Shown here: positions 61,760-62,817 of the stretch, piece after piece
Numbering within the stretch: the first letter of the stretch is position 1
How the letters are laid out: every line of letters starts with the position of its first letter
DNA from: Alicyclobacillus kakegawensis NBRC 103104
GTDB taxonomy: Bacteria; Bacillota; Bacilli; Alicyclobacillales; Alicyclobacillaceae
Reading direction: 5' to 3'
Length of the DNA stretch: 64,000 nt
Assembly (NCBI RefSeq): GCF_001552655.1
Contig: NZ_BCRP01000005.1
Span: forward strand, 62,001 to 126,000
Translations under genes and position numbers: made by a program
Notes under the pieces: generated by a model
What the model saw: the letters and a program-made list of their open reading frames with translations, nothing else
Told to the model about the DNA's origin: nothing
Databases searched by the model: none

Positions 61760-61861
61760 AGGCGGCTGACATCAGGTGTCGAATCCATTTGGAAACCCAT
61801 CCCTGGACTGGACGGGAATCAAGTGTCGTAGTAGGCTTATGCCAAACCACGGTGCGAAGGG

Positions 61862-62278
61862 GTGAGCGAGTTGGACACGTCGGTATTCTCGTTGCTCCCG
61901 CTGCTGCCGATTCTCGTGGGACTGGCGAGCCTGTTGTGGAGCTGCGGCCGCTCGCCCGCCCCGCGGATGGCGTATTCCCGACCGGTCTGGGTGGTGCCCG
62001 CCGCCCTTCCTGACAAAAGGACGGAAGTGTCGCCCATCCTTCGCATCCTGCGCACGATTCGCCGGAAATTGGCAGGCCCTGGTGACGACGAAGAGGGGCC
62101 CCTCCATGCATGCGCCGTCAGCGCGTCACAAAAAACGCATACCTGGACACGGACCTGTTCACGCATGCATGGAGGAGGCCACAAGAAATGTATGGATCGA
62201 TTGAATCGTTTTTGCATGATTTGCTGCTCAACATGGCGATGTACACGCACGATTGGGGCCTGGCCATCATCCTGCTGA
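61862..62278 (+). CDS. Putative regulatory leader peptide upstream of yidC (MifM-like)
   Basis: An ORF opening at a GTG (61862) or, with better spacing to AAGGGGTGAG, a TTG at 61871. The N terminus has one membrane segment (FSLLPLLPILVGLASLLW, residues ~9-26). A basic stretch (RILRTIRRKL, 61-70) and AGPGDDEEGP (71-80) follow. The codons of DDEEG (62084-62098) end right before the 5' arm of a hairpin that covers the yidC ribosome site. B. subtilis MifM has the same plan: one anchor, then an acidic arrest stretch just before a hairpin over yidC2. The frame continues past 62100 into low-quality sequence and ends inside yidC, so the functional part is probably the first ~80 residues. Coding status and arrest are inferred. 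Confidence 0.5.
   Translation: MSELDTSVFSLLPLLPILVGLASLLWSCGRSPAPRMAYSRPVWVVPAALPDKRTEVSPILRILRTIRRKLAGPGDDEEGPLHACAVSASQKTHTWTRTCSRMHGGGHKKCMDRLNRFCMICCSTWRCTRTIGAWPSSC
62101..62175 (+). promoter_or_regulatory. yidC: Hairpin sequestering the yidC ribosome-binding site
   Basis: Perfect 14-bp arms CCTCCATGCATGCG (62101-62114) and CGCATGCATGGAGG (62162-62175), 47 bases apart. The 3' arm ends in the first GGAGG of the GGAGGAGG Shine-Dalgarno sequence (62171-62178), paired with CCTCC of the 5' arm. A ribosome paused on the leader codons 62084-62101 would cover the 5' arm and free the site. Confidence 0.75.
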
Positions 62279-62817
62279 CGGTGGCCGTCCGGCTGCTGCT
62301 GATGCCGCTGTCAATGCGGATGCTGAGGGACATGGACAAACAGATGGCAGTGGCCCCGCGTCTGCGGGAACTAGCCGCCAGATGGAACGGATCGAAGGAA
62401 GGACTGTTGGCCGCGCAACAGGATTTGCTCAAGCGGCATGGGGTGCGGCGCAGTTCGTCCGTGCTGTTGCCGCTGCTGCAGGCGCCGGTGCTGTACATGG
62501 TTTACCAGCTGTTTCGCACCTTGAACCACCCGGTGACGAGCATCCTGGTGCCCTGGGTGCCGTTGACCGCCGTAGATCCGTGGCATGTTGCCCCCCTCGT
62601 CGCGGCGGCGCTGCTGTTCCTCGCCGGCTTGGTCAGCCACCGCCCGGCCCGCTTGGGCGCCAAGGTCCCAGGCGCCATCATCAGCGGTCTGCTGAGCCTT
62701 GTGATCTTATGGCATGCGCCCGTGGCGGCGGCTCTCTACTACGCCATCTCCGGGTTGTGGGGAGCCGGTGAGCGATGGACGTATGGCCGCCTGGTGCCGA
62801 AGGCAGCAGCGGCGTGA
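62188..62817 (+). CDS. yidC: Membrane protein insertase YidC/Oxa1 (second-copy type)
   Basis: Inserts proteins into the cytoplasmic membrane; 209 residues with five hydrophobic segments. The conserved Arg of the hydrophilic groove is in LTVAVRLLLMPLSMRML, followed by the cytosolic hairpin (APRLRELAARWNGSKEGLLA, QQDLLKRHGV) and LLPLLQAPVLYMVYQLF. There is no lipoprotein signal, unlike many YidC1/SpoIIIJ proteins, and no rnpA/rpmH nearby, so this is likely the accessory YidC2. The ATG at 62188 is 9 bases from GGAGG; the upstream in-frame ATG at 62110 has no site. Translation is probably controlled by the hairpin and leader. Confidence 0.92.
   Translation: MYGSIESFLHDLLLNMAMYTHDWGLAIILLTVAVRLLLMPLSMRMLRDMDKQMAVAPRLRELAARWNGSKEGLLAAQQDLLKRHGVRRSSSVLLPLLQAPVLYMVYQLFRTLNHPVTSILVPWVPLTAVDPWHVAPLVAAALLFLAGLVSHRPARLGAKVPGAIISGLLSLVILWHAPVAAALYYAISGLWGAGERWTYGRLVPKAAAA

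Follow-up and report, generated by a model that had tools for sequence, protein, structure and literature searches.

MifM of Bacillus subtilis, the leader in front of the second yidC of that organism (mifM-yqjG/yidC2), is the closest described counterpart of the locus analyzed here, and its established behavior is set out in PMC4423224, PMC6037786 and PMC10987492. It combines an N-terminal transmembrane (TM) segment with a basic [IV]R[RK] stretch and then an acidic run (DEED, residues 86–89); its residues R69, I70, W73, I74, M80 and N81 are critical in the ribosomal tunnel, its stall covers four codons, and a stem that sequesters the downstream Shine-Dalgarno (SD) sequence has its 5' arm encoded just after the acidic codons. 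PMC10987492 gives a median TM-to-arrest distance of 54 residues and counts 572 Firmicutes upstream open reading frames (uORFs) classed as MifM by clustering and charge; some of the leaders described below may already be among these 572, and the string 'alicyclo' is absent from the main text of that paper. Among the matches listed in our literature searches, no paper ties MifM or arrest peptides to Alicyclobacillus. As stated in PMC13183943, MifM had until then been the only arrest peptide shown by experiment to monitor YidC; CliM of Clostridia (uC_KYxIW) is added there, again a YidC-monitoring leader with a TM segment and an SD-masking stem before a secondary yidC, and is contrasted with the acidic residues needed by MifM. 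The RAPP/RAGP arrest peptides (SecM, ApcA, ApdA/ApdP and the RQH family) are likewise regulatory arrest leaders of sec and yidC genes (PMC10987492).

We analyzed a stretch of 64,000 nucleotides (the window) from a 3.42-Mb genome, coded G000, that is close to Alicyclobacillus shizuokensis NBRC 103103. Two YidC genes are found in this genome, one elsewhere on contig C1 and the other, the second insertase gene yidC2, in the window (62188–62817, plus strand; 209 aa; PF02096 E 2.4e-24); a scan of genome contigs led only to A. shizuokensis NBRC 103103, whose YidC2 has 89% identity to that of the window. A short uORF lies immediately 5' of this second yidC. A sequence-only reading of the window had proposed a MifM-type layout here, and its parts (uORF, TM segment, acidic run and SD-sequestering stem) are all present. 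Our verdict, reached by comparing genomes, is that the leader would be a divergent variant of the known MifM-like, YidC-monitoring kind.

The leader peptide and its conservation

The leader ORF (61871–62278, plus strand) probably starts at TTG 61871. The frame is open from GTG 61862, which the sequence-only reading had taken as the start, to a stop at 62276–62278, and a ribosome-binding site is present as claimed (AAGGGGTG, 61857–61864, plus strand; read directly, and the same in G022). We prefer the TTG because this site lies 6 nt before it and because the leader of G021 begins at the same residue (MDTSVFSLL / MDASWLSLL); GTG 61862 was rejected, since the SD abuts that codon. The predicted product has a single hydrophobic segment (SVFSLLPLLPILVGLASLL, 61880–61936, plus strand), assigned as TM by hydropathy only, with the best 19-residue value (2.2) at residues 4–22 counted from the TTG. 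From there, 53 residues lead to the last acidic residue of DDEE. The putative arrest region (LRILRTIRRKLAGPGDDEEGP, 62039–62101, plus strand) ends with these acidic codons (62084–62095, plus strand), which sequence reading and alignment mark as the predicted stall region, followed by Gly and by Pro at 62099–62101; the single membrane segment and the acidic DDEEGP patch are as first described. NCBIfam and Pfam searches with the leader returned nothing informative, a solved-structure search returned coincidental matches only, and a sigma-70 promoter scan found no promoter.

The peptide had been read as not recognisably MifM, but it does not stand alone: related leaders occur in several families of Bacilli. 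A search with the G007 leader matched 11 of the 59 genomes of the order, the window at E 7e-10. YidC2 is patchily distributed in the window's own family, occurring in 11 of 41 genomes (E 6e-37 or better; next best 8e-17), and all 11 have the leader by direct reading or search. The leader of G024 was missed by search and is visible on direct reading, that of G029 has its N-terminus replaced by unrelated sequence, and in G001 the leader and yidC2 lie at the ends of two contigs. A twelfth family genome, G021, keeps the leader before an internally deleted yidC2.

Substitution patterns point to a translated peptide. Between the window and G022, leader dN/dS is 0.387 overall, with values of 0.23 in the first 30 codons and 0.255 in the last 25 against 0.61 in the spacer; it is 0.131 between G007 and G020 (0.065 in the last 25 codons), and 0.13–0.20 among G007, G001 and G020. 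In the alignment of 12 family leaders (A1), R64 and D76 are invariant, L60, R67, R68, K69 and P80 are nearly invariant, and the acidic run is present in 12/12. With G029 set aside, all 23 remaining leaders keep the leader frame open, and each of the other five frames is open in 0–4 of them; in the window the leader region, being GC-rich, is open in all three minus-strand frames too. These data indicate that the leader is a gene, and that purifying selection acts on its membrane segment and its arrest region, with a loose spacer between them. The cross-genome comparison proposed in the sequence-only reading, which looked to a TM-basic-acidic peptide conserved with synonymous bias, comes out in its favor. 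Its likening of LAGPG to RAPP/RAGP motifs does not: LAGPG is not R-A-x-P, of the 12 family leaders just two, those of the window and G022, contain it, and G021 has LTGSG in its place, so we rejected this reading of an unconserved motif.

The stem over the yidC2 ribosome site

Between the acidic codons and yidC2 lies a perfect 14-bp inverted repeat with a 47-nt loop (62101–62114 / 62162–62175). Its 5' arm, the anti-SD strand (62101–62114, plus strand; found by repeat search and folding, and extendable to 62096–62114), begins in the Pro codon 62099–62101 that closes the acidic patch. The 3' arm (62162–62175, plus strand; extendable to 62180) includes GGAGG 62171–62175, part of the yidC2 SD region (GGAGGAGG, 62171–62178, plus strand), which lies inside the stem. 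Both features had been read correctly from the window, and the 64 kb contain no other perfect repeat that is 14 nt or longer and has a 3–100-nt loop, as compared to a mean of 0.03 such repeats in 30 dinucleotide shuffles. Both 14-nt arms are unchanged in G022; the loop varies.

Folding predicts this stem with high probability: whichever of four unstalled contexts is used, and whether at 37 or at 50 °C, the 14-bp helix has a mean pairing probability of 0.99, and the hairpin stability is −44.7 kcal/mol at 37 °C. Weighing the other way, the fold of the whole leader is no better than that of shuffles (z −0.87). A second, overlapping GGAGG (62174–62178), better spaced, lies under the bulged extension of the stem with an unpaired probability of 0.20–0.28; modeling a stalled ribosome with its P site at E77 to P80 raises this to 0.40–0.82, and when the P site is placed at E77, what is left of the helix persists (0.89).

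The yidC frame is itself open 5' of its start (62085–62187) in the window and G022, with ATG 62110 inside the 5' arm, a feature that is not general among relatives. We rejected an N-terminally extended YidC from this ATG: on the way from the acidic codons to yidC, that frame is interrupted by a stop in 16 of 24 loci, 9 of which come on top of the 7 in-frame leaders.

Leaders across Bacilli and their relation to MifM

In a tree of 50 YidC sequences, the YidC2 subfamily is set apart from YidC1 and Bacillus YqjG with 100/100 support, with long branches on both sides of this split; the window YidC2 lies in the other clade from YqjG, and its gene was accordingly not found to be orthologous to yqjG. 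Of 200 genomes of the class searched with a family YidC2 profile, 14 more have the subfamily (E values between 5e-48 and 6e-39, with the next match only at 2e-25), and it is present in 7 of 39 genomes of family f23 and 2 of 11 of f12. A leader of the same plan precedes the gene in 8 of these 14 genomes, and in 5/5 new YidC2-subfamily genomes of f23 and f12. The other six of the 14, all of family f37 (L078, L081, L082, L084, L085, L086), show no MifM-like leader in the 420 nt read upstream, where other reading frames lie. The leader profile itself matched 13 of 398 genomes of the class: eight are real family leaders, four (E 0.006–0.0099) were all listed with in-frame stops, and the match in G038 was rejected as a chance match inside another gene.

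The same basic/acidic leader ending was also found before the lipoprotein, YqjG-type YidC, in 6 of 14 stretches opened (G158, G252, G191, G161, G127, G168; L108–L112, L117); these stretches were chosen from the matches listed in a PF02096 search of 220 genomes. The six leaders come from other genera than the one that yielded the Bacillus MifM, and are possible links between MifM and the window leader.

We tabulated 35 leaders: 13 come from the family, 8 and 5 from other families whose YidC2 is of the same type, 6 stand before YqjG-type YidC, and 3 are Bacillus MifM, of which 5 had been found. In the local fold of the segment from the acidic motif to the yidC start, SD pairing is seen in 35/35 (in G168, only 2 of 5 SD bases). 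The arms vary in sequence by lineage (CCTTCCTTTGTGT, TCCTCCTTTTGG, CTTCCTTGTA, TTTCCTGAA, CCTCCATGCATGCG), the 3' arm follows and pairing holds, so that the stem is kept through sequence change, in line with the support that the sequence-only reading had looked for in the stem. The pairing partners of the SD begin 3–18 nt after the first base of the last codon of the acidic motif (a motif that, as defined, ends one residue past the last acidic residue in G040 and G350) and end by +17 in 27/35, reaching beyond in G180, G190, G135, G350, G158, G191, G161 and G127. The downstream edge of a stalled ribosome lies at about +15 from the P site, and a ribosome stalled at the acidic codons would largely reach the pairing partners. 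This narrow spacing between the acidic codons and the anti-SD strand offers a simple signature for finding more such leaders.

Measured in a fixed 65-nt stretch, the median unpaired probability of the SD is 0.011 for the 35 leader loci, 31 of which lie below 0.35, as compared to 0.48 for 24 yidC1 controls, 5 of which do; 33 controls were tried, 9 were dropped without a clear start or SD, and leaders and controls are related sequences. The stretch excludes the 5' arm in the window, G022 and G021, and their values (0.80, 0.82 and 0.45) therefore represent the open and not the closed state. Four of six YidC2 loci without a leader were measurable, giving 0.25, 0.35, 0.49 and 0.83. A shuffle test on the segment from the acidic codons to the SD was passed (at most 5/100) by 17 of 24 loci and exceeded by the window (16/100), G040 (11), G006 (46), G120 (80), G206 (26), G135 (11) and G355 (41). 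Masking the mRNA under a stalled ribosome raised SD exposure in 24/24 loci; the masked SD was still under 0.35 unpaired in five, namely the window (0.245 to 0.333 under these settings), G135 (0.333), G001b (0.252), G190 (0.052) and G180 (0.008).

That the leader frame continues into yidC, as noted from the window, is confirmed (its stop lies 88 nt inside the gene), but this is no peculiarity of the locus: 14 of the 35 leaders have no stop before yidC, and both out-of-frame relations are represented. Running in is seen in 0 of 10 leaders in frame with yidC versus 14 of 25 out of frame (Fisher p 0.002, related loci counted separately); grouping the loci by lineage by eye weakens the contrast, to p 0.08 for the first 24 loci and about 0.013 by hand for all 35 (0/7 versus 11/20). 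We read this as a weakly constrained leader end, in which the region before the arrest would matter and only fusion to YidC would be avoided, and it suggests that little depends on the leader stop codon so long as no fusion with yidC would result. A leader-yidC fusion or a programmed frameshift was rejected, as the overlaps occur in two relative frames and never in frame.

How close is this leader to MifM? Both precede a second yidC and carry an N-terminal TM segment; the TM-to-arrest spacing agrees (about 54 residues in PMC10987492, 53 to the last acidic residue in the window); a basic [IV]R[RK] stretch is followed by an acidic run, DDEE in the window; and the 5' arm of an SD-sequestering stem, predicted from sequence in the window, is encoded just after the acidic codons. 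Among the critical MifM residues, however, only R-I and I74 are matched in the window stretch RILRTIRRK, and W73, M80 and N81 have no equivalents. The window leader also differs in the Gly-Pro after its acidic run, in a frame that enters yidC, in a longer (47-nt) loop, and in the clade of the YidC behind it. The K-Y-x-I-W motif of CliM is absent from the window leader and from alignments A1 and A4.

We compared profiles under a column-shuffle control, building them from 9 of the 12 family leaders, 10 other Bacilli leaders and 4 MifM of Bacillus; G180 and near-duplicates were excluded. Family leaders and other Bacilli leaders scored 36.0 over 83 columns, reached by 0/200 block shuffles; other Bacilli leaders and MifM scored 17.5, reached by 1/200; family leaders and MifM compared directly scored 13.0, reached by 19/200. 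Plain hhalign gave E 0.0087 for A1 against MifM, 0.0034 for A4 against MifM and 5.4e-6 for A1 against A4, the last over 17 N-terminal columns only. Together, the profile comparisons and the shared leader ending before YqjG-type YidC indicate a single leader family that extends across Bacilli and goes with two YidC types. This suggests that a sensor can outlive or switch its target gene, and a divergent family with the same plan and two YidC types would provide natural variants for testing which nascent-chain features are needed to stall.

Homology of the window leader to B. subtilis MifM itself is only suggestive. We do not file the leader as MifM in the strict sense because W73, M80 and N81 are missing and the downstream genes are not orthologous. 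An independently evolved arrest peptide, using the MifM mechanism with no shared ancestry, is a serious though less favored alternative, and one compatible with our best explanation of how the leader works. It would account for the non-significant direct profile score, for the different clade of the downstream YidC, for the lack of W73, M80 and N81, and for the failure of MifM searches to find the family leaders: a B. subtilis MifM query matched 6 of 398 genomes (five of genus g38, one at chance level) and a MifM profile 6 of 249 (all of genus g38). The C-terminal S-F/L-L likeness to MifM is no evidence of ancestry either, since it may come from codons that pair with AAAGGAGG. Against independent origin stand the intermediate leaders, which match MifM at 1/200 shuffles and some of which precede the lipoprotein, YqjG-type YidC, and the WIRRK of G190, which bridges the WIRK of MifM and the VRRK/IRRK of the family leaders.

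A fuller proposal, which we put forward tentatively and with somewhat less confidence than we give to independent origin, is that the leader belongs to a broad Bacilli family of YidC-monitoring arrest peptides, separate from or anciently related to MifM. Its members would share RRK, 4–10 residues and an acidic run usually followed by Pro or His, and would stall at the one codon before that residue; the family would have been kept while the gene behind it switched between two non-orthologous YidC types. The open end, often overlapping yidC out of frame, would let un-stalled ribosomes cross the yidC start as a second layer of repression.

Proposed mechanism and alternatives

We consider it very likely that the window leader works like MifM, as a divergent, YidC-monitoring variant acting by translational arrest. 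Homologous leaders, coding constraint, the stem, its geometry and the co-occurrence with yidC2 lend it support, and the constraint, the retained stem and the narrow distances between acidic codons and stem favor the MifM-type mechanism that had been proposed for the locus. Weighing against it are the 7 of 24 loci, the window included, that exceed the shuffle limit, the five whose masked SD stays under 0.35, the eight whose pairing partners extend past +17, the missing W73, M80 and N81, MifM searches that apart from one chance-level match reached genus g38 only, and a yidC2 that is patchy and in places decayed. The steps that we infer (stalling, the stall codon, release by YidC-dependent insertion and yidC2 induction) would run as follows. 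Translation would begin at TTG 61871 and yield a peptide that crosses the membrane once. Prompt insertion of its N-terminus by the resident YidC would exert a pull that keeps translation moving past the acidic codons; the stem 62101–62114 / 62162–62175 would re-form behind the passing ribosome, and the yidC2 ribosome site would stay closed. When insertion capacity is short, the nascent IRRK...DDEEGP would arrest translation while the acidic codons occupy the peptidyl-transferase center, with Pro80 (62099–62101) probably at the A site or close to it. By covering the anti-SD strand, the arrested ribosome would open the stem and allow yidC2 to be translated. The Pro conserved after the acidic run (His in some other lineages) suggests a single stall with Pro in the A site, in contrast to the four codons of the MifM stall.

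Plain translational coupling, in which passing ribosomes open the stem whatever the peptide, with no specific arrest or sensing, is improbable. It draws on the position of the stem, which in the window lies inside an open frame running into yidC, on the many other leaders that run in, and on a low leader-frame dN/dS (0.296, G000/G022) also in the stretch 3' of the acidic codons, a value from only 8 changes in a stretch that also holds the stem. But coupling would leave unexplained why conservation of the peptide falls on the parts that a sensor requires (the TM segment and the last 25 codons) and is loose in the spacer, and why R64 and D76 are invariant in 12 leaders; moreover, the distance from the acidic codons to the stem is held even though the position of the stop codon ranges from 101 nt upstream to 158 nt downstream of the yidC start.

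Less probable still is a small membrane protein that has its own role (e.g., as a YidC2 partner) and is made in an operon with yidC2, the stem being only a brake. A TM protein under purifying selection that adjoins yidC2 in the family would fit this, but the drifting spacer, a variable C-terminal end, open in some leaders and closed by a stop in others, and the concentration of constraint in an arrest-like segment encoded right next to the stem all count against it. RNA-only control by a thermosensor or riboswitch-like stem, with the ORF there by chance, is hardly credible despite the very stable hairpin, given the coding constraint and frame statistics, a helix probability unchanged at 50 °C, and an Rfam search that gave no family and one sub-threshold match, inside yidC.

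The yidC2 gene is visibly decayed at several loci: G018, G021, G029 and the second copy of G001. In G021, of the same genus (L034:784-1334, contig C4), the leader and stem are kept and the middle of yidC2 is deleted in frame, fusing its first 30-odd residues to the C-terminus. G001 has a second, degenerate leader-yidC2 pair (L035, contig C108); in G029 (L036, contig C140), yidC2 has an internal TAA behind the leader with the swapped N-terminus; and in G018 (L012, contig C1) the C-terminus of yidC2 is disrupted. When the window is compared with G022, dN/dS is 0.88 over the opening 30 codons of yidC2, the part that overlaps the leader frame (62188–62277), as compared to 0.18 for the rest of the gene; the changes there are few (2.5 synonymous, 6.5 other), and the overlap is possibly the cause.
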